DNA of 64,000 nt from Eucommia ulmoides. Lineage: Eukaryota; Streptophyta; Magnoliopsida; Garryales; Eucommiaceae. The position numbers and the translations under genes are program-made. Position 1 is the first letter of the stretch. Each line of letters begins with the position of its first letter. This document shows positions 8,001 through 60,029 of this stretch, in pieces. A model generated the notes under the pieces. It saw only the letters and a program-made list of their open reading frames with translations. It was not told the origin of the DNA and did not search any database. Location of the stretch: NCBI GenBank assembly GCA_016647705.1, contig CM028333.1, positions 13,041,616-13,105,615 of the forward strand. Direction: 5' to 3'.

Positions 8001-9193
8001 GAGTACGAATTAGGAAAACGTTAGCGCATTGTTCTCACTCCTACAAACAGTAAAGGTTGTGGTCAGTCGTGTTCCATACTTTTAGATTTCATTTGATTTC
8101 TTCAATTTTTTTATTGTTTTTCTAGATTTAAGTAGTTCTTCCTGTTAGGGATCCGATGCAGCCACTAAAATTCGTTGGATTTCAAATACTTTTATTTTAG
8201 ATTTCAATAGATTTGTAATCATGTATTTTTATATTTCAATAGTTTTTTTTTTTCCTTCGGTAGTTTATAAAATAACACAAAACACTAAAGTCAAATAAAA
8301 AACAAACAAAATAAAATCACTTTGGGCATAAATCAAAAGCCCTTTTATCCATTTTCTCGAAGACGATGTCTTCCAAGTTTGACGTCGGGGTCTCAAGGAT
8401 TTTGAGCATACAATCTCCCTCAGCTCCTTTTTTGGCCAGTAATTCTACACATCTATTGGTCTCTTTTGGAGAAAATTAAAAAATTTAGTTATTTAGGATG
8501 AGTCTCTTGCATTTATCAATCCAATATTTGAAGCGGTGGTTCTCAGGACATAGATTCAATAATTAATTAATAATTCTCTAGTTTATAGAGATAATCACAT
8601 GTTTAGAGCATTTCCATTGATTAATTTGAGTGAAATTTCACTTAACTAATTATGTGGTTTTCTATTTATTTTTCAATTATATCTCAACTATAAGTTTGAG
8701 ATTCTTTTCAATTTGAAAGTATTTCAGTGGATTTTTAGTTGATTGAGTGTCAGTAAAATATTGTTGGATTATTACTTTTGAAATTTATATTTTCTTCAGT
8801 AAAATATATCTGAAAATAAAATTTAAAATATAAATTTGAATATGTAGTGAATTTTTACTTTAGTGGTTTGAATTGTTTTATGAATATTTCATTTTTGAAT
8901 TTTTAGATTTATGTAGAGAATGATATATGAGTTTTTTTTTATAGCATAATTCTTTTTTTTTTTTCTATATTCAGTCGAATTGTTAATATTCAGTGAAATT
9001 ATAAAAACTCAGTGGAACAACGTTTATTAATTTTTGGTAATTAACTTATTTATAAATATAATTTTTGTATAAAAAAATTATATATTATGAATAAAAAATA
9101 AAATGGAGTGAAATTTTTATTGAAAATTAAAATTCAATGGATATTGTAAAATAAAATTAAATGAAACGTACCTCAGCGTATTTATAAAATTTA
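8001..9193. other. AT-rich spacer
   Basis: No gene recognised. From about 8600 the text is very AT-rich with short poly-T runs. A repeated phrase (GTGAAATTT, TCAGTGGA/TCAGTGAAA) occurs several times between 8620 and 9170, perhaps a decayed MITE, but no ends could be defined. Confidence 0.4.
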
Positions 9194-9515
9194 GGGCAAA
9201 TTACAATTTTGTTCCTCGTATTTGCACGCGTTTCTCCATTTGGCCTCTAATTTTATTTTATTTTTTGTCAAAGTGGTTCTCGTATTTGCAACCGTTTTTT
9301 AAGTGGCCATTCCGTAAAAAATAGGCATTAATTGTGACGGATTTGAGGCATGTGATTTGCATATGCAAACTTCAACAGTAAAAAAGTAATTTTTTTGGCA
9401 AATCACAGTTTTGGTCTTTGCATTTGCACGCGTTTTTCAATTTGGCCTTCCGATTTTTTATTTTTTTTGCCAAAGTGGTATTCGTATTTGCAGCCATTTT
9501 TTTAAGTGGCCTTCC
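9194..9515. repeat. left terminal inverted repeat of the Pack-MULE
   Basis: Two tandem, diverged copies (about 9194-9398 and 9399-9515) of the block that reads GCAAATYACARTTTTG ... ATTTGCACGCGT ... CAAAGTGGT ... AAGTGGCC. It is inverted relative to 11185-11560. Confidence 0.8.
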
Positions 9516-9517
9516 AA

Positions 9518-10737
9518 CAACTTCTTCGTCGCGTATTCCTCTACCTCCACGTTGTTATGGGTTTTACATGCGCTCAAAAGAGCCACCCATAACACCGGTG
9601 TTGGATCCATCGGCATCTCTCAAATCAATCTTATCACTTCTTCCAGCCGACCGACACGACCCAACAAATCCACCATGGAAGCATAATGCTCAACACCGGG
9701 AACAACTCCAAACAACCCACCTCGCATCTTCTTGAAAAACTCAATCCATTTATCCACCATACTCAAATAACTACAAGCATAAAGCAAAACAAGAAACGTC
9801 ACGCAGTCAATTTTTAAATCAAAATTCCTCATCTGGTCAAATATTCCAACAGCCTCATATCCCCTTCCATGAATGTCGTACCCTGCCATTAACGATGTCT
9901 ACGACACCTCATTCCTTTGACCCATCAAATCAAACACCATCTTTGTCGCATCAACATTGTCGGACTTCGCATACATATCGATTAGACAATTGGCAACAAA
10001 CAAAAACCCATTTCTATAACGGTTAACCAAAACAAACCCATGAATCTATTTCCCAAACCTTAATGATGCAAGACGAGCACATGCCATTAACGCACAACAC
10101 ACAATGAATACATTCGATTTTACATAGCCGTTATGATTCACGATCGCCGAGAAAAGCTCCAAAGTATCATTGGTGCCACTGTGTTGTGCGTATTCACCAA
10201 TCATAACAGTCCATGTCACCACATTTCAACCATGAGCTCCCATGTCATCAAACATTGTCCAAGCAATCTCGTCCTTTTTACACTTTGCATTCATGTCTAT
10301 AAGCCCTTTAACCACCATTACATCGTCCCCTTTATCATTCTCATCGATATTTTGAACCAGTTTCAGAGCATAACAATGGGTTTCTCTCCCTTGATTCAAT
10401 GTTGAACAGAGGTACAAGCTGATAACAGAAAGAGACAAGGTTGACAGCGTTTGGTTCAGACCCAAAAATCCTCAACTGTCTAAACATGTCTCGAGCTTCA
10501 TAGTCTTGTTGCCTTTGAGCATACCTGGAAATTACAGCACTCCATGTTATTATATTCAATTTGATGTTTTGTTCCTTCATTTTCTCGAACAAATCAATGG
10601 TGTCTTCACATTGATCGATCTATGAGTAACCAGTCACCATTGAATTCCATGAAATAACGTCTTTTACCTTCATTTGTCCAAAGAATTTGTTGACTTCATC
10701 CATTAATTTACACTTTGCATACATGTCAACAATGGCG
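9518..10737 (-). pseudogene. captured PLS-class pentatricopeptide repeat gene fragment
   Basis: Minus-strand reading runs from about 10737 to 9518 and resembles the middle and end of a plant PLS-type PPR protein of the Arabidopsis At5g16860 (PCMP-H92) kind, as I remember it. Recognisable pieces in order: VDMYAKCKLMDEVNKFFGQM, DVISWNSMVTGYS, LFEKMKEQNIKLNIITWSAV, GLIDMNAKCKKDE, GRGYEAVGIFDQMRNF, CVTFLVLLYACSYLSMVD, EHYASMVDLLGRVGRLEE, MPMDPTPVLWVALLSACK. PPR proteins bind organellar RNA. Here the N-terminal targeting region and the start are absent, and there are several frame changes and stops (for example before DMPMDP near 9620). It has no promoter of its own and lies inside a MULE. It is a transduplicated fragment, not a working PPR gene. 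Confidence 0.82.
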
Positions 10738-11133
10738 AATATGAAATATTGTCGGAGACCGAAGAAAACATCCCAGGGAGATGGATTTGGGAAAAACGAT
10801 GGTGGCGATGATGACAATAAGATTGCAGACGTGGTGTTCGACAGAATCATCACGAGGATATTGTTCTCCGTTGGGGTCCCACTGTTCACCAGTGTGGTTT
10901 TTCTATTCGCAATGGATGCAGTGAAGGAACAACAGCTTTGGAATCCACCGGCGTGGCTAGTTTTCTTGATGGTCTTTATCACGTTCGATGGTTCAGTGCT
11001 TGGATTGGCGTACGGCACGGTGTCGACTAGTTGGGATCCGACGAAAACGGGGTCATTTACAGGGTTTGAAGAAGTCCAGTAGAATTGGGTTGAGCTCGTG
11101 AGAGAAGAAGATGAAGGTGGCCGGCGACGGTAA
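10732..11133 (+). pseudogene. captured PAM68-like (chloroplast membrane assembly factor) fragment
   Basis: Plus-strand reading starts around ATG 10732 and gives a PAM68-family domain: ADVVFDRIITRILFSVGVPL, two hydrophobic segments (about FTSVVFLFAM and WLVFLMVFITFDGSVLGLA), then YGTVSTSWDPTKTGSFTGFE. PAM68 and PAM68L are thylakoid membrane proteins that help assemble photosystem II and the NDH complex; the text is closer to the PAM68L type. A TAG at 11080-11082 replaces an expected Lys codon, and the frame then continues NWVELVREEDEGGRRR to TAA at 11131, so it is interrupted near its natural end. The transit peptide is missing. The fragment abuts the PPR fragment at about 10732-10740. Confidence 0.78.
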
Positions 11134-11184
11134 GTGATAAATAATGCTGACATCGTCCGAAAACAAAAAGAAAATGGAAAAAAA

Positions 11185-11560
11185 TTACTTTTCAATCCCT
11201 AAAGTTTCATGTGCAAGTCACATGCCTCAAATTCATCATAATTAACGCCTATTTTTTATAGAAGGGCCACTTAAAAAATGGTTACAAATACGAGAACAAA
11301 TTGGAGGGCCAAATGGAAAAACACATGCAAATACGAGGACCAAAATGGTAATTTGCCCAAACAAAAATTACTTTTCTACCCCTGAAATTTGCATGTGCAA
11401 GTCACATGTCTTAAATCCGTCATAATTAATGCTTATTTTTTACAGAAGGTCCACTTAAAAAAAGGGCTGCATATACGAGGGCCACTTTGATAGAAAAAAA
11501 AATTGGAGGGCCAAATGAAAAAACGCGTGCAAATACGAGGACCAAAATTGTAATTTGCCC
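11185..11560. repeat. right terminal inverted repeat of the Pack-MULE
   Basis: Two tandem diverged copies (about 11185-11360 and 11361-11560) of the block seen inverted at 9194-9515. It includes the phrases AAGTCACATG, CATAATTAA and AAATACGAGG, and ends at GTAATTTGCCC. Confidence 0.8.
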
Positions 11561-11569
11561 TAAAATTTA

Positions 11570-17347: not shown

Positions 17348-19177
17348 TTAGTCGGTGCTCCTCGAATCTTTGAGAAAAATGAAGACTCTGCTAGCCATGA
17401 AGATCAATGGGTCAGGACAACTGATTTCACTCCATCCTTCTCCATTGGCCAATCTTCAGCTCTTCATTTGAAACTTCCATATGACACTCAGCTTCCAAAC
17501 TTCTGTGCAAACTTCTTTTACTACACAGAAAGCGAAAGCCAATTCATCCTGGAGAGTGGTTCCACGTTTTCCCGAAATTTGAATCTTGTCCCAATTGTTG
17601 GCCCTCCCCCAGGACTTGATTTGCCTTACAAAATATTGTTCAAGGTTTGTGCGTTGATTCAGCACGGGTGTGTTCCAGGGCCAGCACTTGATGACAAATT
17701 TTTCTGGTTGGTTGATCCCCAGAGGGTAAACCTTTTCATGCATTGAACATGCCCTGGAAAGGCTGTCTCATAGAAAGGATTGGTGCTACCAACTAGTAAG
17801 GTGGCTGACTGAGCAATACACAAAATATGGAGCGGCCAGGAATCTTCCTAACTCACCTGCCATTACTTTAGATGCTGGATTGGTTTACGTTCACAGGGTT
17901 CAAGTCACCCCATCCAAAGTGTACTTTTGTGGTCCGGAGGTCAATGTGTCCAATCGTGTACTACGTAACTATCCTGAAGATATTGACAATTTTCTTCGCG
18001 TTTCTTTTGTTGACGAGGAGCTGGATAAAATGTATTCCGCGAATTTGTGCCCACGCGCAGCCAACAGAAATGAAGAAAGAAGAACGAGCATTTATAAGAG
18101 GATAATTTGGTATGTCATTAGTAATAAAAGGTTCGAATTTCTTGCATTTTCCCCGAGTCAATTGAAGGAAAATTCTGTGTGGATGTTTGCTTCCAGACTT
18201 GGGCTCACCTCTGGCGATATAAGAAAGTGGATGGGTGATTTCCGTCCAATAAGAAACGTGGCAAAATACGCTGCCAGACTGGGTCAATCTTTCAGCTCGT
18301 CCACGGAAACGTTGAATGTTGCGAGGCACGAAATCGAAATTATTCCTGACGTAGAGGCCATCAGAGGTAAAACCAAATATGTTTTTTCGGATGGAATTGG
18401 GAAAATATCCAAGGATTTTGCAGACAGTATTGCTATGAAATGTGGCCTCAGAAGTTTTACTTCGTCTGCTTTTCAAATTCGTTATGGTGGGTACAAAGGT
18501 GTGGTCGCGATTGATCCCTACTCGTCGGCTAAGTTGTCGCTTAGGAAGAGCATGTCGAAGCATGACTCAAACAACACGAAATTAGACGTTCTAGCATGGG
18601 CAAAATATCAACCTTGTTATCTAAATCGTCAGTTCATCACTCTTTTGTCTACTCTCGGGATTAAAGATCACGTCTTTGAGAAAAAACAGATGGAAGAATT
18701 GAATAGTATCTTGACAGATCCTTTGAGGGCACGGGAGGCATTAGAGTTGATGTCTCCAGGCGAAAACGCCAACATTCTCAAGGAAATGTTGTTATGTGGT
18801 TACAAGCCTAATGCTGAACCGTTTCTCTCAATGATGCTGCAGACGTTTCGGGCACCAAAATTGATTGAATTGCGGACTAAAGCAAGGATATTCGTCCCAA
18901 GTGGAAGAGCAATGATAGGTTGTTTGGATGAAACCAGGACCTTGGAATATGGGCAGGTATTTGTGCAATTCTCTGGTACTGGACGTCGAGCATTTTATGA
19001 TGACAGCATTCTGTTCAATGATCGTGGCTCAGGCCAGCCTGAAATTGTCGAGGGCATAGTAGTTGTTGCGAAAAACCCGCGCCTGCATCCCGGTGATGTT
19101 CGTGTTTTGAGGGCTGTTAATGTGCCGACTTTGCACCATATGGTGGATTGTGTTGTTTTTCCACAGAAAGGAATGAG
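17348..19177 (+). CDS. RDR1: RDR1 coding exon 2 (large exon, one +1 shift)
   Basis: Runs from LVGAPRIFEKNED to VDCVVFPQKGM. The frame changes between VDPQRVN (about 17730) and IEHALERLSHRKDWCY (from about 17743) by one extra base. Downstream the frame is clean for more than 430 codons. Near 18085-18125 it is several residues shorter than remembered relatives (YKRIIWYVISNKRFEFLAFS), an in-frame difference. Confidence 0.88.
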
Positions 19178-19327
19178 GTAATTAATTTAAATGAATTTAT
19201 TCCACGATTTTGTATTAAAGTTGTTAAATCCCACGTCGTTTGTGTTTTCTAATCCTAAGCTATATATAAAGTTTAAGACAATCCTTAAAGCGTTTTTTGA
19301 GAGTGAGTCTTTTAATTTCATTGACAG

Positions 19328-25814: not shown

Positions 25815-26118
25815 CAACACAAGATATTTCTTTCGGCAACGATCTTTTCCCCAGTTGTTCCTCCTCTCTCTTTTCACACAGCGATACGACCATTCATATT
25901 CGAAACAAGACTTGCATGTCTCCTTCAACCCCCTTTCTCTTTTCTCTCTGGCTTTGATCAAAACCTCATTCTCTTTCTCACATATACCCACGTACACGCA
26001 TATGCATAAGTAATTGTTTGCGTATATCGTTTAATCGCTAGACGTTTGAATTTCTTGGAGTTCGGTTCATTTTCTTGGGATCGATTTTGGGTTTGCTGTC
26101 CCATTTATTGGGTCAATT

Positions 26119-29100
26119 ATGGTCAAATCGACTGAAAATGGGTCGGCGGTGCCGCCTTTTCTGTTGAAGTGCTATCAGATGGTGGATGATCAGTCGACGG
26201 ACGCGTTGATTTCGTGGAGTAAGACCGGCGATAGCTTCGTGATATGGAAGGAAGCGGAGTTTTCGACCGTATTGCTCCCGCAATACTTCAAACACAGCAA
26301 TTTTTCGAGCTTCGTTAGGCAACTCAACATCTATGTGAGCTTTTTTTGTTCCTCGTTTGCCTATCTAAATCAATTGTGCTGTTTAATTGTCGAGATTCTC
26401 AGTTTCTGATTGCCCAATTCGGCTTTGATGAAAGTCTTAGGGCTTGATGGCTGTCTGAATTGTCCTATTTTTTTATTTATCTGGTTTTTGATGAATTAAT
26501 TCATATGTTTCTCCCTTAATCAAATCTACATGTTCTTTGTTTGAAGTTGAACTAAGAAATATGAAATTGTTTTATTATGTTTTACTAGCTAATTTAAGTG
26601 TTCTTCAATTCTTGCTACCAAACACTAAACTATAAAAATTCGTAAATAAAATTTGTTAAATTCATGTCCCAACATCGATCTGTCTGAATATCGATCACTT
26701 TCAAGTTCCCAAACCACTATATAAGTCAATGGAGTTACTCTACTTAGCATATATGGTTTTAAGTTGGAATCTCTTAATATCAGAGCCAAGGTTATGAGAA
26801 TTTATTTGTCATTCTCTCGTAGTCAAATCGTTTGTGCAAGTTGGTGTTGTACATTTTTTATCATTTTGTAGTCAAGTCATCCCTGCCAATTGGGGGTTGC
26901 ATTTAAGAGCGGGTGCTAAATTCTTGTGTCGCATCGATCACTCAAGAGTTTTCAAACCAATATATAAGACAAAGGAGTTAATCCACTTGACACCATATGG
27001 TTTTAAGTCGGAACATAGTTGTCAAAGGCGTGCCTAAACTCGCGCCTAGGCTCAAGGCTCAGACAGGCTCACCTGGCGTGCCTCGCCCAGAGAAAGGCTT
27101 GCGCCTTCTGAGCTTGGGCGCTAGGCGCACCTTGCTCGAGATACTGGGTCTTAATTGAAAAATAAAAGACTTTGCCCTAGGTCTGTTACATTCACTTGCT
27201 TCGCGGCAGTTCTTCCTCTTCGCAACACTGTTTGGACTTCGCATGTAAGTCGTCTTCTCCTTCTTCTTCTTTGAATCTCCTTCTCCTTCTCCTTCAAATC
27301 TTCTTCTCCTTCTTCTAGACTTCGTTATGCCCTTGTTCTTCTTTTTCTTGCCATGTTTCTTCTTCCCCTGTTCAACGTCTTCTTCCCCTGCTTCGCCCTT
27401 CCCCTGGTCTTCGTTCTTCAGTCTTCCCTTCCACTTTGAGTATGTTTATTTATTTTTTCTTGTTTCTACTGTTATTGTTTATCTGTTTATTATTTATTTG
27501 TTTAATTAATTATTTATTTAAGCAGCTTCGGCCCCGTTTGGTTAGTGTTTCCATTCCATTCCAACCCAACCCAATCCAAAAATTCTAGGTTTGATTTTTG
27601 GGAACGCATTCGGCAAACACAAAACTCAACCCAACCTAACCCAAAAAATGAGAATTGATTCTCAAAATCCTAAAGAAATTAGAAACAAAAAAAAAAATTG
27701 TGCCCAAAAAACTCAACTCAAGTAAGGACACACTTGATATTTACAAAATTATTAATGAGCCAAATTCATCCCACTTCATTCCAACTTCTCACGATCAGGC
27801 TTCGTTCTTCCATCTTCACTGTTCTTCCTCTTCGGCATCATCCTCGTCGGCGTCGTCCTCTTCCTTGTCGGCGTTGTCCTCCTCCTTCTCATCATCTTCT
27901 CTTTCGTCGTCCTCTTCCTCGTCGTCGTCGTCGTCCTCCTTCTTTCCATCGTCTTCTCTGCTGTCGTCCTCACCATCGTTGTCTTCTCCAGCCACCGCCA
28001 TCGTTGTCTTCTCCATCGCCATCATCGTCGCCGTCTCCAACGTAAGCTCTCTCTCTCTCGAGATTTCGATTTCCTTGCTGAAATTGATTTCGATTTCGAT
28101 TTCCTCGCAATCGTCTTCACAAAATCGAAATCGTTCGTTCTTCTTTCACGAAATCGAAATCGATTTCGTTGCTCGTTGACGAAATCAATTTCGATTTCAT
28201 TGTTAGCAGTGATGTTTGTTCGTCGTTCGTCTTTAGATCGTCATTGGTGGGAGGCCAATCGTTCTTCTTCTTGAAATCAATTTAGGGTTTCGAACACGAA
28301 ATCGATTTCGATTTCGTTATTGAAATCGATTTCGGTTCTTCGTTCGTCTTCGTCCGTCGCCTGGGTTTAGGATGTTGTGCGTGTGTGTTCTTCAAATTTG
28401 TTGAGGAAAATTTGTTCTGAAAAATTTGTTGAGGAAAACTTCTTGGATTACATGTTGCATGTTCTACAAGCTTTCTTGGATTTCATGTTGCAGGTTCTGA
28501 AAATTGTTGAGGTTATGAAAAAATTGTTGAGGAAAATTTCTCATTCTTAGGTTCTGAAAATTTCTCAGAAAAAATTCTCATTCTTAGATTTTAAATAAAT
28601 AAAGAATAATTGTTGAAGAAACAATTCCAGAATTATGCGTTACCAAACACGATTCTGTTCTCAGTACAAAACAAAAATTGTCGTTACCAAATGTAATTCT
28701 GTTCTGAGTAGGAGACAGAATTCTCAACTCAATTCAACCCAACCCATCGCAGTTGGGTTGAGAAAAGTGGAAACACTAACCAAACGCCACCTTCAATTCC
28801 CTATTTTTTGTCTTTTTAGATTATTGATTGATTGAATTTATTTGAAAATTTTATTAGTTAATTTTTTTTATTTATTAGCTCACATGTGACTTGTGAGTGT
28901 GTTTTATTTTTTATAGTTGAAATATAGTTCATAGTTTTATTTGTTGATTCTAGATTTGCAACATTTTAATGTTATAAATTATATTTATTTATTTTAATGT
29001 CATGTGCTTGGCTTCACTCAGGCTATCGCCTAGCCTTGTGCCTTGCACCTAGGCTCCGGGACCCCTCGTGTACCTCGGTGTGCTTAGAGCCTTTAACAAC

Positions 29101-38788: not shown

Positions 38789-40433
38789 TGGTATCAAGAG
38801 CCTAATCTTTGTACAACTATGATTGTTGATGTTCGTACAGTTTTGGCTTTCGCACAACTCTGATTTGATTTTTTCTGCAGCGAATCATTGATTTGTTTTT
38901 GGTATTTGATTTTCTTTCTCTGACGCATTAGATTTGTGCTTTCGTTTGTTGGTATTTGTAATGATTTCTGAAAATGATGATTCGCTTCAGTCTATTACTG
39001 TGAGATTGAATGGGGAAAAAATTCATATTGGAATTATGTAATGAAAAAGTTTCTCAAAGGCAAAAAGATGTGGGGCTATATTAGTGGTACATTAGTTAAA
39101 CCAAAAGATGAAAGGGTTGAAGACTATATAATTTCGTTAGACACTTGGGAGACAAATAATTCGAAAATCAATATTTGGATTAATAACTCTGTTGATCATT
39201 CAATTGATATGCAATTGGCGAAGTATGAGTATGCCAAAAAGGTCTGGAATCCTCTATCAGAATTGTACACACAGTCTAACTTTACAAAACAATATCAATT
39301 GAAATCTGATATTCGAGCACTGAAGCAGAATGATATGAGTATCCAAGAATTCTACTCCGCTATAACAGATCTTTGGGATCAATTAGCTCTCACAGAATCA
39401 ATAGAGTTACAAGCAAGTATTCCGTACATTGCTCGTAGAGAATAACAACGTTTGGTCCAATTTTTTATGGCGTTACGTGATGATTTTGAGAGACTTTGTG
39501 GGACAATTTTGTACCGTAATCCACTTCTTTCTGTTGACTCAATGGTTAGTGAATTATTGGCCAACGAGATATGCTTCAAATCTCAATCAGATACAAGGGT
39601 TCTCCAATCACCCAATCCATTTGTTTTGACGATTCCTTCTAAACGACCTCCTAATCATCAAAACAAGCCCTATATGAGGACTGCCTTTGATGAATGTAGC
39701 TTTTGTAAGTAGAAAGGTCACTGTAAAACTCAATGCCTTAAATTGAGTAGAACACAGGAACAACAGCAACAGTCGCCTCCCTAGTAGAAATCTGACGATC
39801 GATTTCAAAAACGTCCTTACAGGCCTCCACAACCTAACACTGCAGCAATTGTACCATCATCATCAAATTCATTTAGTTTTGGAGACCCAACATCTTCTAA
39901 TCCCACAATAGAGCCCGCCCTTACTAAACAATTTCAGAAGTTCTTTACCATACAGCCGCATGTCATGTCTGTTGCGTCTTCAGTAAGTTTATCACCTTCT
40001 AGTTCTTCAGATATGTCTTCCTTCATGTGGATTCTAGATTCTAAAGCCTCTAACCATATGTCACCTGATTTGTCATCATTCGCTTCTTTAAATCCTGCAT
40101 CATTTGTATCTGTTATGACTATTGATGGTACTCCAATGCCATTAGTAGGCATTGGTTCTGTTGTCAAATCATGGTTATCTCTTTCAAGTGTTTATCATAT
40201 TCCCAATATTGCATTGAATCTTTTTTCTGTTGGCCAATTATGTGATTCTGGTTACTCAGTTTCTTTCTCTTCTACCTCTTGTCATGTACAGGATCCACAA
40301 TCCCAAAAGCTGATTGGGACAAGCCGTAAGTAGGAGGGACTATATATATTAGATAAGCTACGAGTACCAAATGTTGTAACTTCCAGTGTTGACTTGTCGT
40401 CTTTTCATTTGACTTCTTCATCTTCTAGTTTTT

Positions 40434-41160
40434 ATTTATCGCGTTCTCGTCTTGGTCACGTTTCAACATCTTGTTTAAAATACTTAGTATCTAAAGGATC
40501 CTTAGAGAAATTGTCAGCTTGTGATATTTCTGATTGTAATGCTTGTAAACTTGCAAAATTCTCTGTTTTACCTTGTAATCGAAGTATTTCTTCTTCTCTT
40601 ACACCATTTGATCTAGTTCACTCTGATATGTGGGGACCTTCCTCGATTGCTACAAAATGGGGGTCCAGATATTATGTTTTCTTTATTAATGATTACACTC
40701 GATATTGTTGGATTTATCTTATGAAATGTCATTCTGAATTCTTTGATATTTTTCAAAAGTTTCGAGCTCTTGTTAAGACCCAACATTCTGCTATTATCAA
40801 GTGCTTTAGATGTGATTTGGGTGGGGAGTACATTTTTTAATCCTTTCACTAACTTGTTTGCTTTAGATGGAACAATTCACCAAATCTCATGTACTAACAC
40901 TCTTGAGAAAAATGGTGTCGCTGAAAGGAAACATAGGCACATTGTTAAAATCACTCGTTCTCTCTTACTGTTTGCCTCTATTTCTAGTGTATTTTGGAGA
41001 GAAGCAATACTTACTACAGTGAACTTAATTAATAAGATCTCATCCTCTCATTCTTCAGGTTTGTCTCCATTTGAAAAGTTGTATGGTCATGCTTCCAAAT
41101 ATTCTTACTTAAGAGTATTTGGGTGCACTTCTTTTGTTCTTCGATCAAAAGTATAGTGTA
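40434..41160 (+). mobile_element. copia integrase region
   Basis: SRLGHVSTSCLKYLVSKG followed by the CNACKLAK zinc ligands is the GAG-pre-integrase domain. FDLVHSDMWGPSS and FINDYTRYCWIYLMK are the integrase core around the first Asp, and later text (ENGVAERKHRHIVKIT) is the Glu region. The order shows integrase before reverse transcriptase, hence Ty1/copia. Confidence 0.88.
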
Positions 41161-45938: not shown

Positions 45939-46728
45939 TGAACGCGCCCCAATTTTCCAAAGAAAATCAAAAAAAAATATAGATATATTTGTTTGTTGAC
46001 AAAATGAGAAGGGTTTTTTAAAAACGTCGATTTTCTTATTAAAATATACTTAAGCCTGTTTTAGAAAAAGGAATCGCCACCTAGCATTGGGTTTAAATGA
46101 TATGCTAGGTCACCATATTTTTCTTTTTTGAAAACAATTTTAAAAAAATGGCTTAAGTAAAAATTTGACTCCAAAATAACATGGTCTGACCAGAGATTCG
46201 TTTAAAGAGTTCGAGGGTCAGTTACGCTCGGGGAAGGTGTCAACCACCCCGAGACACCCGTCCAAAGACGGTACCTTATCCGATTAAGTCTAATTAAAAT
46301 TTAAATCCGAATATTTTTATTTTATTTTGAAATCCTCCTCATATACACACACATACACATACACACATATCGAGGGAAGTAATCTCCCTTCTAAACCTAG
46401 ACCGTTCTAATGGAAGGCTGGGAATTTTTCACCTCATCTTGTTAGCATATTATATTTAACACAAGTTAAAGAAACACACGCACGCACACACTCACACGCA
46501 TCGAGGGGAGTAATTCCCTTCTAAACCTAAACCGTTCCAATGGAAGGTTAGAAATTTTTCACCTTATCTTGTCAATACATTATATTTAATACGAGTTAAA
46601 GAAACACACGCACGCACACATCGAGGGGAGTAATTCCCTTCTAAATTTAAACCGTTCAAATGGAAGGTTGGAAATTTTCTACCTTATCTTGTCAGCACAT
46701 TATATTTAATACGAGTTAAAGAAACACA

Positions 46729-46777
<49 letters not shown>

Positions 46778-48108
46778 GCACACTCCTCAAGGGGAGTAAT
46801 TTCATTCTAAACTTAAACCGTTCCAATAGAAGGTCAGAAATTTTTCACCTCGTATTGTTAGCACATTATATTTAATACAAATTAAATAAAACACACGCAC
46901 ACACACGCACACATGCACACACACACACACTCCTCAAGGGGAGTAATTTCATTCTAAACTTAAACCGTTCCAATGGAAGGTCAGAAGTTTTTCACCTCGT
47001 ATTGTTAGCACATTATATTTAATACAAATTAAATAAAACACACGCACACGCACACACGCACGCACACTCCTCAAGGAGAGTAATTTCATTCTAAACTTAA
47101 ACCGTTCCAATGGAAGGTCAGAAGTTTTTCACCTCGTATTATTAGCACATTATATTTAATACAAATTAAATAAAACACACGCGCCCACACACTCACACGC
47201 ATCGAGGGGAGTAATTCCCTTCTAAACTTAAACCGTTCCAATGGAAGATTGAAAATTTTCCACCTCGTTTTATTTACTCAAAAAAAAAAATTAAAAAATA
47301 AATAAATAAATAATAATAAAAAGAGAAAAAAAAATCTAATTTACAAAAAAAAAAATTAGTATAATAACAACTTATTTAAAAATAAGAGTAAGATTTACAA
47401 CAGATGAAAATTTACAACCTTCTTGGAGATTTTTTTTTCTTCTTCAAAATTACAATAAAATGAAAATAATATTATTTTCTTCAAAATTTCTCTCCAGATT
47501 TCACCTCTCCCTTCCCAAAAAAATTCTCCTCTGGTATTGTGAGCCTTCATTCTATTTATAGGAATGAAGGTGCAAAATTCGTTCGGCAAAAAGCGAAGCA
47601 AAAAGTAAGAAAAAGGGGTGGGTGCACCAAAATTCGGTGCACCCACCCCCTTTGGGTGCACCGAAATCAGTGCACCCAAAGGTGCACTAGGCAGAGAGCA
47701 AAGCTCTCTGCCCAGCTGGCGGCATATGCGGCCAGAGCACTGGTCGCACAGCGATCAGTGCATCTGGTCGCACGTGCAACCAATTTTTGGTGGCACGTGC
47801 GACCTTTATACAGCCCCCTCCCACCCCTTTCAAATGTGATCTGTCCAGGCTTCTCTCGTTCTCGTCTGTTTCTTGTCCATTTTGTTCCGAATTAACGCGT
47901 TTTTATTCCACTTCGAAAAATCTACAATAATAAAAAAAAATAGAAAAATAAATCAATCAATTACCAATATTTAATTTATTTAAGATATTAACAAAACTTA
48001 ATTTAGCGGTATTAAACCGTACAAATACGGTACAATCAAAATAAAATAAAGGTAACTATAAAATAAATTATAATTTTTTTGCGAGGCGGTCAAAATGTCG
48101 TGTCTACA
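45939..48108 (-). repeat. 3' LTR of the Tat element
   Basis: Plus-strand TGAACGCGCCCC to GTGTCTACA, 2,170 bp. It contains the CA-rich minisatellite (about 46340-47270), the hairpin cluster (about 47620-47770) and a minus-strand CTATAAATAG near 47551. Confidence 0.92.
46340..47270. repeat. minisatellite inside the Tat 3' LTR
   Basis: About seven units of roughly 115-140 bp repeat GAGGGGAGTAATTCCCTTCT, ACCGTTCCAATGGAAGG and CACATTATATTTAATAC, joined by CA/CGCA microsatellites of variable length. The same array is at about 58060-58910 in the other LTR, with a different microsatellite length. Confidence 0.9.
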
Positions 48109-48123
48109 GCTGCCCCTCTTTGT
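48109..48123 (-). other. polypurine tract of the Tat element
   Basis: Minus-strand AAAGAGGGGCAGC lies directly against the 3' LTR edge, as expected for the plus-strand primer of reverse transcription. Confidence 0.8.
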
Positions 48124-50247: not shown

Positions 50248-53200
50248 TTATTGTACCCATTCAGTTTCATCAAGCTCGGCCTCTATGAGCACTCGTAGAG
50301 ATGGAATTTCCACCTCAGCCGGTATCACTGCTTCTGTGCCATAGACCAAAGAATAGGGGGTTGCCCCTGTCGAGGTCCGAACCGAAGTCCGGTAAGCCAT
50401 CAAAGCATATGGCAGCATATCATCCCACTCTTTATAATTATCAATCATCTTTCGGAGAATTTTCTTTATATTTTTGTTGGCGGCCTCCACTGCTCCATTC
50501 ATTTTTGGACGGTAAGGCGCTGAGTTTTTGTGCTTGATCTTGAACTACTGACATATTTTCTGTATTTCTGAACCCTTCAGGTTTTTAGCATTGTCGGTTA
50601 TCAATGTTTGCGGCAAACCGTATCTTGACACAATATTTTCTTTGATGAACCGAGCTACTGTCTTTTGAGTCACTCGGGCTAAGGAAATAGCTTCTACCCA
50701 CTTGGAAAAATAATCAATTGCCACCAGGATAAAGCGATGACCACTCGGCGCCTTAGTAGTAACTTCCCCAATAACGTCCATACCCCACATTGAGAAGGGC
50801 CATGGGGCCGCCAAACAATGAAGGTGCGAAGGTGGGACATGGATTTGATCACCATGAATCTGACACTTATGGCATCTTCGGACAAACTGCACGTAGTCGC
50901 TTTCCATCGTTAGCCAAAAATGACCGATCCTCAGGATTTTCTTGGCGAGCATAAAGCCGCTCATGTGAGGTCCACATATGCCACCATGGACCTCTTTCAT
51001 CAACTGGATGGCCTCTTCGACTCCAACACATCTCAACAGGCCCATGTCAGGGGAGCGTTTGTACAGTGTCTCCCCGCTTAGGAAGAATTGGCCTGCTAGC
51101 CTCCGGAGAGTTTTCCGATCAACACCTAATGCCCCTTCTGGATACTCCCGATCTTTCAGAAAGTTCTTTATGTCATGGTACCACGGGTCTTTGGCTAGTT
51201 CAGATTCAAGCTGGCAACAGTGGGCCGGTCGGCGCTGAACTCGGATTGCCACCGGAATGATATCATCATCCTCCCGAGTGATAGAGATCATAGACGCCAA
51301 GGTAGCTAAGGCATCGGCGAAGTTATTTTTTAGCCTCGATATGCTTTCAAATTCTATCATCGTAAATCGCTCGCATAACTCCAGGAGGTGATTGTTATAG
51401 GCTATTAAGGTCGGATCTCTTGTGGCATACTTATCCGTCACCTGATTGATTATCAGCTCAAAATCTCCGAACACTAGTAATTCTTTGATTTTCATGTCGA
51501 CAGCCAGCTGGAGTTCCAGAATACAGGCTTCGTACTCAGCTCGATTATTTGTGCTCTGGAACTTCAATTTGGAAGCCACTGGATAATGCTGCTTGCCTGG
51601 AGAAACCAGAACGACTCCGATTCCAGCCCCTCGAGAGTTCACTGCTCCATCAAAATACATTTTCCAAACTGTTTCTTCGTTTTCTTCATCTAACGCATGA
51701 ATCGACTCGTCAGGGAATAGTGTCTCAAGAGGCTGGTTATCCGTTTGAGCTGGACAACTAGCCAACTGATCTTCTATTGCCTGACCCTTCACTGACTTTT
51801 GGGTCTTGTAGATGATATCGAACTCTGTCGGCAGCATCTGCCATTTTGCAACTTTTCCTAACAGAATCGACTTCTCGAAGATGTACTTTAAGAGATCCAT
51901 CCTGGCTATCAAGTAGGTAGTCAGTGGGAGCATATAATGGCGCAGTCTTTGAGCAGACCAAGCTAATGCACAATAGGTCCTCTCCAGCAAGGTATAATTT
52001 TTCTCATACTTCGTGAAGCGCTTGCTGAGGTAGTAGATGGCTTGCTCCTTCTTTCCAGATTTATCGAGTTGCCCAAGAATAGCTCCCATGGAGGAGTCGA
52101 GAACTGACAAATATAGTAATAACGGAACCTTCTCCCGAGGCGGCACTAGAACGGGAGGGTTCGTTCGATAGACTTTAATTTTCTCCAAGGCATTCTGGCA
52201 ATCTGCATTCCATTGCCCGTCACTTTCTTTTCGAAGTAGCTTGAAGATTGGCTCACAAGCGGCAGTGAGTTGGAAGATGAATCGGGCTATGAAATTTAAT
52301 CGCCCCAAAAAACCTCGGATCTCTTTCTCATTTCTCGGTGGTGGCATCTCACGAATGGCCTTCGTCTTTGCAGGATCAATCTCGATTCCATGGCGATTTA
52401 CCATGAAACCAAGAAGTTTTCCGGAAGTCACCCCAAACGCGCATTTTGTTGGATTGAGCTTGAGCTGGTACTTTCGAAGTCTGTCGAACATCTTTTTCAA
52501 ATGGCAGAGATGATCCTCGTTCTCCTGAGATTTAACAATCATGTCATCTACATATACCTCCATCTCCTTGTGCATCATATCATGAAAGAGGGTCGTCATT
52601 GCTCTTTGGTATGTTGCCCCGGCATTTTTGAGACCGAAAGGCATCGCCCTATAACAAAAGACTCCCCATGGTGTAGTGAAGGCTATCTTTTCTCGATCTT
52701 TCTCATCCATCAGAATCTGATTATAGCCAGAGAATCCATCGGCGAAAGAATAGAGCTTTTGCCCCGCAGTATTGTCGATGATGATGTGAATGTTTGGCAG
52801 TGAAAAATCATCTTTTGGACTTGCCCGGTTGAGATCACGATAATCCACGCAGACTCTGATTTTTCCTGAGGACTTTAGCACGGGAACGACATTTGAGAGC
52901 CATTCACTGTAGTTACAGACTTCAATAATTCGGGCATTGAATTGCTTCACGATCTCCTCCTTGACCTCGAGGCTGACAGCGGGCCTCAACTTTCTCAACT
53001 TTTGTTTGACAGGTACACTCCCCGGTTTTAGCGGCAGCTTATGGGCCACGATACTCTTGTCCACTCCTACTATGTCATCGTAGAACCAGGAAAAGATATC
53101 TTGGTAGGAAATTAAGAGCGTTGTCAACTCTTTTTTTTCCAGAGTCATGAAGGCTGATCCAATCTTTACTTCCTTCAACTCTTCCGAGGTCCCTAAGTTT

Positions 53201-53427
53201 ATCAACTCGGTCTCATCGTTACTGGGAATCAGCTTGTTCTCGAACTCCGTGAAAGCTTTTCGGATCTCACCATCATTTGGCTGGAAAGAGTCATCTTCTG
53301 TTTCCACTCCCATCAGGTTATGGTATGGTTCTGCATTAAAATCATACTTATCGCACTCTAGCTCAGTTATATCACATGCATCATACACTGGTAATTTAGG
53401 CATCCTAAAAGCATAAAATTTAAACAT
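50248..53427 (-). mobile_element. Tat pol: reverse transcriptase, RNase H, second RNase H, integrase
   Basis: A long minus-strand frame of 960 residues (53427-50545) plus a further integrase piece (50502-50248). Approximate order: reverse transcriptase with VDYRDLNRASPKDDFSLP and YVDDMIVKS near residue 290; RNase H around 430-540 (PLLLYLSVLDSSMGAILGQL); second, archaeal-type RNase H around 590-720 (MYFDGAVNSRGAGIGVVLV, NNRAEYEACILELQLA, FGDFELIINQV); zinc-binding HGGICGPH ... CHKCQ; integrase core WGMDVIGEVTTKAPSGH near 875; and NGAVEAANKNIKKILRKMI in the last piece. The double RNase H is diagnostic for the Tat lineage. Confidence 0.92.
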
Positions 53428-57643: not shown

Positions 57644-59745
57644 TGAACGCGCCCTAATTTTCCAAAGAAAATCAAAAAAAAAATATAGATATATTTGTTT
57701 GTTGACAAAATGAGAAGGGTTTTTTAAAAACGTCTATTTTCTCATTAAAATATACTTAAGCCTGTTTTAGAAAAAGGAGTCGCCACCTAATATTGGGTTT
57801 TAATGATGTGCTAGGTCACCATATTGTTCTTTTTTGAAAACAATTTAAAAAAATGGCTTAAGTAAAAATTTGACTCCAAAATAACATGGTCTGACCAGAG
57901 ATTCGTTTAAAGAGTTCGGGGGTCAGTTATGCTCGGGGAAGGTGTCAAGCACCCCGAGACGCCCGTCCAAAGACGGTACCTTATCCGATTAAGTCCAATC
58001 AAAATTTAAATCCAAATGTTTTTATTTTATTTTGAAATCCTCCTCATATACACACACATACACATACACACACATCGAGGGAAGTAATCTCCCTTCTAAA
58101 CCTAGACCGTTCTAATGGAAGGCTGAGAATTTTTCACCTCATCTTGTTAGCATATTATATTTAACACAAGTTAAAGAAACACACGCACGCACGCACTCAC
58201 ACGCATCGGGGAGAGTAATTTCCTTCTAAACCTAAACCGTTCCAATGGAAGGTTGGGAATTTTCCACCTTATCTTGTCAGCACATTATATTTAATACGAG
58301 TTAAAGAAACACACGCACGCACACATCGAGGGGAGTAATTCCCTTCTAAATTTAAACCGTTCAAATGGAAGGTTGAGAATTTTCCACCTTATCTTGTCAG
58401 TACATTATATTTAATACGAGTTAAAGAAACACACGCACACTCCTCAAGGGGAGTAATTTCATTCTAAACTTAAACCGTTTCAATGGAATGTCAGAAGTTT
58501 TTCACCTCGTATTGTTAGCACATTATATTTAATACAAATTAAATAAAACACACGCACACACACACACACACACGCACACTCCTCAAGGGGAGTAATTTTA
58601 TTCTAAATTTAAACCGTTCCAATGGAAGGTCAGAAGTTTTCCACCTCGTATTGTTAGCACATTATATTTAATACAAATTAAATAAAACACACGCACACAC
58701 ACACACACGCGCACACTCCTCAAGGGGAGTAATTTCATTCTAAACTTAAACCGTTCCAATGGAAGGTCAGAAGTTTTCCACCTCGTATTGTTAACACATT
58801 ATATTTAATACAAATTAAATAAAACACACGCGCCCACACACTCACACGCATCGAGGCGAGTAATTCCCTTCTAAACTTAAACCGTTCCAATGGAAGGTTG
58901 GGAATTTTCCACCTCGTTTTATTTACTCAAAAAAAATTAAAAAATAAATAAATAAATAAATAAATAATAAAAAGAGAAAAAAAATCTAATTTACAAAAAA
59001 AAAATTAGTATAATAACAACTTATTTAAAAATAAGAGTAAGATTTACAACAGATGAAAATTTACAACCTTCTTGGAGATTTTTTTTCTTCTTCAAAATTA
59101 TAATAAAATAAAAATAATATTATTTTCTTCAAAATTTCTCTCCAGATTTTACCTCTCCCTTCCCAAAAAAATTCCCCTCTGGTATTGTGAGCCTTCATTC
59201 TATTTATAGGAATGAAGGTGCAAAATTCGTCCGACAAAAAGCGAAGCAAAAAGTAAGAAAAAGGGGTGGGTGCACTGAAATTCGGTGCACCCACCCCCTT
59301 TGGGTGCACCGAAATCGGTGCACCCAAAGGTGCACTGGGCAGAAAAAGCTCTCTGCCCAGCTGGCGGCATATGCGGCCAGAGCACTGGTCGCACAGCAAC
59401 CAGTGCATCTGGTCGCGACCAGTTTTTGGTCGTACGTGCGATCTTTATATAGCCCCTTCCCACCCCTTTCGAATGTGATCTGTCCAGGCTTCTCTCATTC
59501 TCGTCTGTTTCTTGTCCATTTTGTTCCGAATTAACGCGTTTTTATTCCACTTCGAAAGATCTAAAAAAAAAATAAAATAATTACCAATATTTAATTTACT
59601 TAAGATATTAACAAAACTTAATTTAGCGGTATTAAACCGTACAAACGCGGTACAATCAAAACAAAATAAATAGGAAAATAAAATAAAGGTAACTATAAAA
59701 TAAATTATAATTTTTTTGCGAGGCGGTCAAAATGTCGTGTCTACA
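57644..59745 (-). repeat. 5' LTR of the Tat element
   Basis: 2,102 bp, closely similar to 45939-48108. It holds the minisatellite (about 58060-58910), a minus-strand CTATAAATAG TATA box near 59200, and four hairpins at 59263-59406, which lie upstream of the TATA in the element's sense. The length difference from the other LTR is mainly in microsatellite and repeat-unit number. Confidence 0.92.
59263..59406. promoter_or_regulatory. cluster of four hairpins upstream of the Tat LTR TATA box
   Basis: Perfect arms: GGGGTGGGTGCAC/GTGCACCCACCCC (59263-59297); TTTGGGTGCACCGA with its inverse and a 2-base loop (59299-59328); CTGGGCAGA/TCTGCCCAG (59334-59360); GCACTGGT/ACCAGTGC (59382-59406). The other LTR has the same cluster at about 47620-47770. 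The promoter-proximal placement suggests a regulatory role, by inference. Confidence 0.7.
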
Positions 59746-60029
59746 GGGAGTTTGGAAAACTCGAGTTTTTAAGACTCAAGAATTTGGATTTCAAGAGGTG
59801 GGTAACCTTTAGTAGTCACTTTCCGAGGCTTAAGTATTTGGTGTTGAACAAGTGCAGAGATCTGAGAGAGATCCCATTTTGTCTAGGGGATGTATGTACA
59901 CTGGAGATTATTGAGGTGAAGTTCTGTAATGGCTCAGCAGCAAGATCGGCACGAGATATTGAAGTATATCAAGATAGTATTGGCAATGATGGGCTGAAAA
60001 TCGAGGTTTACCCTCAAATCAGAAATTGA
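59746..60029 (+). pseudogene. CC-NBS-LRR immune receptor, 3' end of the leucine-rich repeats
   Basis: Directly after the GGGAG target repeat the NLR text resumes: LDFKRWVTFSSHFPRLKYLV, CRDLREIPFCLGDVCTLEII, then a hydrophilic tail ending EVYPQIRN and TGA at 60027-60029. Its frame agrees with the frame leaving the left part at GATGGGGAG, so the retrotransposon split one reading frame. The stop looks natural for this family. Confidence 0.88.

Follow-up and report, generated by a model that had tools for sequence, protein, structure and literature searches.

The segment at positions 9194 to 11560 of the window (the window being the whole 64-kb, that is 64,000-nucleotide, stretch of Eucommia ulmoides DNA that was analysed) is, with a probability of roughly 0.92, a dead non-autonomous Mutator-like Pack-MULE with tandem TIRs, and a member of a family with PPR cargo at no fewer than 37 loci, the window included. 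The copy in the window and its target duplications are made up as follows.

9185 to 9193, no strand: left target site duplication, TAAAATTTA (from sequence comparison of both flanks)
9194 to 9395, plus strand: left outer TIR unit, with 84.8% identity to the right outer unit
9396 to 9515, plus strand: left inner TIR unit, of which about 120 bp of a roughly 200-bp unit is present in this copy
9516 to 10735, minus strand: PPR gene fragment, reading leftward (Pfam PF01535 and PF13041; its boundary with PAM68 taken from the donor alignment)
10736 to 11161, plus strand: PAM68 (PF11947) gene fragment (from Pfam, frames and alignment to the donor on C12)
11162 to 11177, no strand: short spacer that separates the PAM68 fragment from the right inner TIR
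11178 to 11358, minus strand: right inner TIR unit, 87.7% identical to the right outer unit
11359 to 11560, minus strand: right outer TIR unit
11561 to 11569, no strand: right target site duplication, TAAAATTTA (from sequence comparison of both flanks)

The two flanks agree at 9 of 9 bases, which is a target duplication of the approximately 9 bp typical of a MULE (the range given in the available part of PMC9168764 is 7-12 bp), and base composition gives a perfect 9-mer match a chance probability of about 8e-6. The outermost 18 bases, GGGCAAATTACAATTTTG, are identical at both ends, and as inverted repeats the ends have 82% identity over 271 aligned bases (blastn, E 1e-70), so that the long TIRs of a MULE are present. 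The perfect 9-bp repeat and the matching ends reported in an earlier note, which was made from the letters of this DNA, are both borne out, as is its claim that no transposase is encoded: among the frames scanned inside the element, Pfam returned the PPR and PAM68 families, weak sub-threshold matches and no transposase. Host gene fragments within such ends and no transposase is the make-up of a Pack-MULE, and the two fragments together with the TIRs account for all of the copy except 16 bp. A tRNA scan was empty.

Elsewhere in the window there is an RNA-dependent RNA polymerase exon (17730-19178, PF05183, E 1.4e-127), a heat-shock-factor DNA-binding exon (26050-26406, PF00447, E 1.2e-21) and a Copia-type gag-pre-integrase fragment (40334-40837, PF13976). 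An NB-ARC disease-resistance-like gene (PF00931; 43851-45639 and 59682-60026) is seemingly split by an LTR retrotransposon with direct repeats at 45939-48109 and 57644-59746 (92-96% identity) and, from Pfam, a reverse transcriptase and integrase frame on the minus strand at 50548-53427. The distal piece, 59682-60026, has no Pfam match and its tie to the gene was judged by eye.

Searches of the assembly (946,670,599 bases in 391 contigs) place the window copy in its family. With up to 2 mismatches the TIR 18-mer occurs at 677 + 694 = 1371 sites, against 20 + 24 = 44 for the reversed pattern. The PPR fragment, searched as DNA, has at least 52 matches, lying at the window and at least 36 other loci (40 of 49 candidates scored). 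All 36 of these other loci were retrieved and their parts mapped. Within the stretch fetched for each, TIR matches flank the PPR sequence on both sides at 20, on one side at 13 and on neither at 3; elements sharing these inverted repeats, for which the earlier note had suggested looking, do exist. PAM68 in forward orientation lies to the right of PPR at 29 of the 36, and at 23 a single alignment runs across the same PPR/PAM68 junction, covering 40 bp or more to either side. The identical junction at these 23 loci shows that the PPR/PAM68 chimera arose once and was then spread. Because the junction is common to many loci, the capture is one made in an ancestor of the family and not in the window copy. 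Thus the earlier reading of a Pack-MULE with two unrelated gene fragments head to head stands as to element type and cargo, with that qualification. The sharing of cargo with at least 36 other loci, the tandem same-facing TIRs and the loss of a part from the window copy are all points beyond that note.

A pair of end motifs suited to a test for target duplications was present at 18 of the 36 loci (the other 18 being without such a pair). Perfect 9-mer duplications occur without any shift at 3 of the 18 (L053, L056 and L070); perfect duplications of 8 bases or longer, the ends being allowed to shift by up to 2 bases, at 5 (adding L055 and L067); and duplications with at most one mismatch at 9 (adding L045, L047, L052 and L079). 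When the ends were displaced outward by 20-210 bp as a control, the mean numbers of loci in these three classes were 0.0, 0.25 and 1.5, the last figure making the class with a mismatch the weakest of the three. One might suppose instead that the two fragments are ordinary neighbouring pseudogenes that happen to lie between chance inverted repeats, and both fragments are indeed decayed. However, an identical junction at 23 of 36 other loci, target duplications in excess of the control and an 18-mer that, allowing up to 2 mismatches, occurs 1371 times versus 44 when reversed make that supposition so improbable as to be nearly negligible.

In eight 3-kb loci chosen for the TIR, pieces of the TIR were present but neither PPR nor PAM68 was matched. 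At three of the PPR loci (L051, L070 and L077) the PPR part is split, with some 2.2-3.2 kb of other DNA in between, which probably inserted later. No published record of this element family was found in the open-licence literature, a scope that makes the absence weak evidence, and in the available portion of the main text of the Eucommia genome paper (PMC7603500) neither 'mutator' nor 'mule' occurs.

The arrangement of the TIRs bears on how the element was assembled. At each end of the window copy there are two units in tandem, in the overall order left outer, left inner, right inner, right outer, with inner and outer facing the same way. At both ends external and internal TIRs are alike over at least 100 bp, which is what tandem TIRs are taken to be. 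At 8 of the 36 other loci each end has at least two TIR unit starts, and in the mapped copies too the inner and outer TIRs of an end share one orientation. Fusion of neighbours, as set out by Gisby and Catoni 2022, in which a pair of elements lying near each other moves as one unit together with the intervening DNA and keeps the inner ends, is a published route to uptake of new DNA (PMC8903248, in the text available). It would, however, leave inner TIRs opposite in orientation to the adjacent outer ones, a deduction of our own (the available text of that paper contains no orientation test), and opposite-facing pairs are seen neither in the window copy nor in the mapped copies. The same-facing orientation therefore speaks against fusion of two neighbouring elements, which we regard as quite unlikely. 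Same-facing tandem TIRs at both ends are just what would result if a Pack-MULE with single TIRs had landed inside a short element of two related TIRs and so come to mimic the tandem condition. Such nesting is unlikely, given that the inner pair in the window copy has no flanking target duplication at any length from 7 to 11; the tandem-TIR elements of tomato are likewise without a recognisable internal one (Ferguson and Jiang, PMC3310237).

Turning to the cargo of this tandem-TIR Pack-MULE, the PAM68 fragment of the window, which the earlier note had correctly put on the plus strand, matches PF11947 at E 1.3e-27. It corresponds to the 3' part of a coding region, and a premature TAG is present at 11080-11082. 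Compared with solved structures, it gave no match up to E 1. Its donor is at C12:1601351-1601740, where an open frame of 196 codons without stops has 94% amino acid identity to the family majority (73 of 73 candidates scored). In 1.6 kb retrieved around it (L080) a frame runs unbroken for 188 codons from its ATG to the stop, with no intron seen in it. The captured part is bases 644-1071 of that stretch (428 bp), the last 27 bp being past the donor's stop codon, and the family majority differs from it at 27 of the 428 sites. The donor's N-terminal coding part and its flanks are absent from the element. This accords with one half of an expectation in the earlier note, that the donors would have introns or flanks that the element lacks; the other half, a difference in introns, is inapplicable because the PAM68 donor frame has none. 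The 1.6 kb contains no PPR match of any consequence, and it does not show the configuration that would have told against capture, in which PPR and PAM68 are neighbours at an ordinary locus that lacks the inverted ends. Outside the captured part, the matches of this stretch to parts of the element are all short, the best being one of 18 A/T-rich bases to the TIR; there are also some repeat-like matches to the flanks of L059, L066 and L071.

A second PAM68-like frame without stops, at C8:64249270-64249638, is not the donor; its identity to the majority is 37%. There are also PAM68-like pieces with no PPR match nearby at C14:21947688-21948064, C16:26455464-26455815 and C5:23497542-23497637, which might be intermediates that preceded capture of PPR.

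The PPR fragment is on the minus strand, as had been claimed, and with stops read through as X it matches PF01535 at E 2e-29 and PF13041 at 1.1e-26. In the window it has 5 in-frame stops and one frameshift near 10400-10440, the latter placed by eye. It presumably resembles Arabidopsis At5g16860. A protein search of the assembly gave at least 193 matches (101 of 899 candidates scored). Among the matches listed, all those of at least 53% identity sit at loci of the PPR DNA search, nearly all with stops (two shorter pieces are without), and the long intact PPR frames elsewhere have 42% identity or less. Hence, of the two parental loci that the earlier note proposed to seek, an uninterrupted PAM68 gene was found on C12, but an intact PPR donor was not among the matches listed from either the DNA search (40 of 49 candidates scored) or the protein search (101 of 899). 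Since such a donor would be expected to rank near the top of the matches, it is probably absent from the assembly. A bolder and doubtful version would have the intact PPR parent gene lost from the genome (or the fragment of outside origin), surviving only as dozens of broken copies in a transposon family whose TIR grew by absorbing coding sequence of a second gene. If true, the disappearance of the donor would be tied to its capture by an element that was methylated and silenced.

At 23 of the 36 other loci the last 100 bp or so of PAM68 is present on the left in inverted orientation. Among the 23 that keep the left end of PPR, 22 have this inverted tail, the exception being L062. The longest inverted match in each of 10 copies examined spans 275-581 aligned bases at 70-85% identity, PAM68 tail included, and exceeds 400 bases in 8 of them (it is 376 in L044 and 275 in L058). 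With the PAM68 tail inverted at the left, the inverted repeat therefore includes captured coding sequence. Missing from the window copy are the inverted tail, the inner part of the left inner TIR and a stretch of about 12 bp that separates tail from PPR in the others; the 12 bp is probably PPR sequence, and the absence of all three is most simply due to deletion. Two deletion forms recur in the family: ten loci are without PPR positions ~837-1165, and in L059, L061 and L062 PPR 825 is fused to PAM68 211-213.

In the majority sequence built from 22 copies, not counting L062, the PPR frame continues in frame into the last residues of PAM68 and its stop. The majority sequence built from 34 sequences has 332 open codons, the PPR part upstream giving no single frame. 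A working chimeric gene, whose PPR-PAM68 frame is or was kept by selection, might be thought to follow from these two observations, and its case would gain from the positions of the coding differences between donor and majority, of which 16 of 23 are at third positions. The last bias has little force, since selection acting only on the donor gene would be expected to produce it. Moreover, the longest open stretch in any single one of the 34 sequences is 237 codons, and the window copy has the stops and frameshift already mentioned.

The pattern of decay also bears on such a gene. Changes from the majority were counted in 22 rows for PAM68, 27 for the long PPR part and 16 for the upstream PPR part, and C>T and G>A together account for 69.6%, 72.3% and 62.8% of them, respectively. 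The C>T rate is 0.21-0.23 at CG, 0.23 at CHG and 0.07-0.08 at CHH. By codon position it is 0.172/0.176/0.160 in PAM68, 0.138/0.141/0.146 in the long PPR part and 0.101/0.130/0.131 in the upstream part, decay of this type thus being alike over positions in all three, contrary to what a maintained frame would lead one to expect. For the remaining types of change, the three positions differ little in PAM68 (0.036/0.041/0.044), and the long PPR part has its lowest rate at third positions (0.029/0.030/0.023) and not, as selection would have it, at the first and second. The upstream PPR part is the one on the side of a selected frame, its other changes being higher at third positions (0.021/0.026/0.038, from 32, 40 and 58 changes in 16 rows). 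This excess is unpredicted by neutral decay alone, and is the single sign against it. A selected chimeric gene is, on balance, very unlikely, and a function of the PPR or PAM68 fragments is without support. The pattern reads as the trace of CG and CHG methylation together with mostly neutral decay, with little sign of selection. The FastTree tree of the 25 rows with enough of the PPR left part is star-like, with long tips and short inner branches, and their pairwise identity has a median of 0.838 (minimum 0.797, maximum 0.878). All copies compared are old and decaying.

For the Pack-MULE family favoured here, the following course of events is proposed. The fragments may have been acquired via template switching during repair or replication, and the inverted PAM68 tail may have arisen when one end was copied onto the other. 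Cutting at the outer TIRs, and insertion with duplication of 9 bp of the target, would have been the work of a MULE transposase supplied in trans. CG and CHG methylation would afterwards have silenced the family.

Several of the separate ingredients have precedents. Multi-source Pack-MULEs of rice go back to Jiang 2004 (as given in the available parts of papers citing it). Multi-source Pack-TYPE elements of maize and rice, and Arabidopsis Pack-CACTA, are dealt with in PMC8903248, whose available text has no account of elements that combine tandem TIRs with several sources; multi-locus capture is also covered in the parts available of PMC9168764 and PMC3544724. As in Eucommia, host gene fragments are carried by DNA transposons in another dicot, grapevine, where transduplicated fragments include a PPR fragment in a CACTA family (PMC2528002), though that is a different superfamily and the available text mentions no second source. 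Multicopy Pack-TIRs and the FoSTeST model of template switching were described in animals (PMC8277862, available part), and models of this type are reviewed in PMC13317346 (likewise in part). By analogy, capture by template switching followed by amplification, as put forward in the accessible text of PMC8277862, would fit the pattern of the Eucommia family.

Of the kinds already known, the one that comes closest is the type 1 described by Ferguson and Jiang 2012 (PMC3310237), the tandem-TIR Pack-MULE. Among 61 multi-TIR MULEs of tomato, 48 have tandem TIRs at both ends, and in Arabidopsis there are eleven tandem-TIR elements of this sort, one of them a Pack-MULE (PMC3310237). The likeness extends to being non-autonomous, to long tandem TIRs at both ends with target duplications outside only, to a captured gene fragment and to amplification. 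The tomato type-1 family PM-ZIBP (13 tandem-TIR copies; PMC3310237) has a fragment of one gene, whereas the Eucommia family has fragments of two host genes, with cargo at 37 loci or more, and differs from tomato type 1 in that part of one captured gene is repeated, inverted, at the other end. Captured sequence in a TIR is not new by itself, since acquired sequence was noted to form part of extended TIRs in some elements (PMC3310237). The same authors found no evidence that tandem-TIR elements acquire sequence (PMC3310237), and whether they can is a matter on which the present family bears. It holds together several steps, namely a known PAM68 donor, a common junction, an inverted repeat that includes a captured exon, an in-frame join in the majority and two recurring deletion forms, and is therefore a good test case for gene uptake by MULEs. 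Each trait is known from other plants; their combination in Eucommia makes for an unusually clear record of gene shuffling by such elements.
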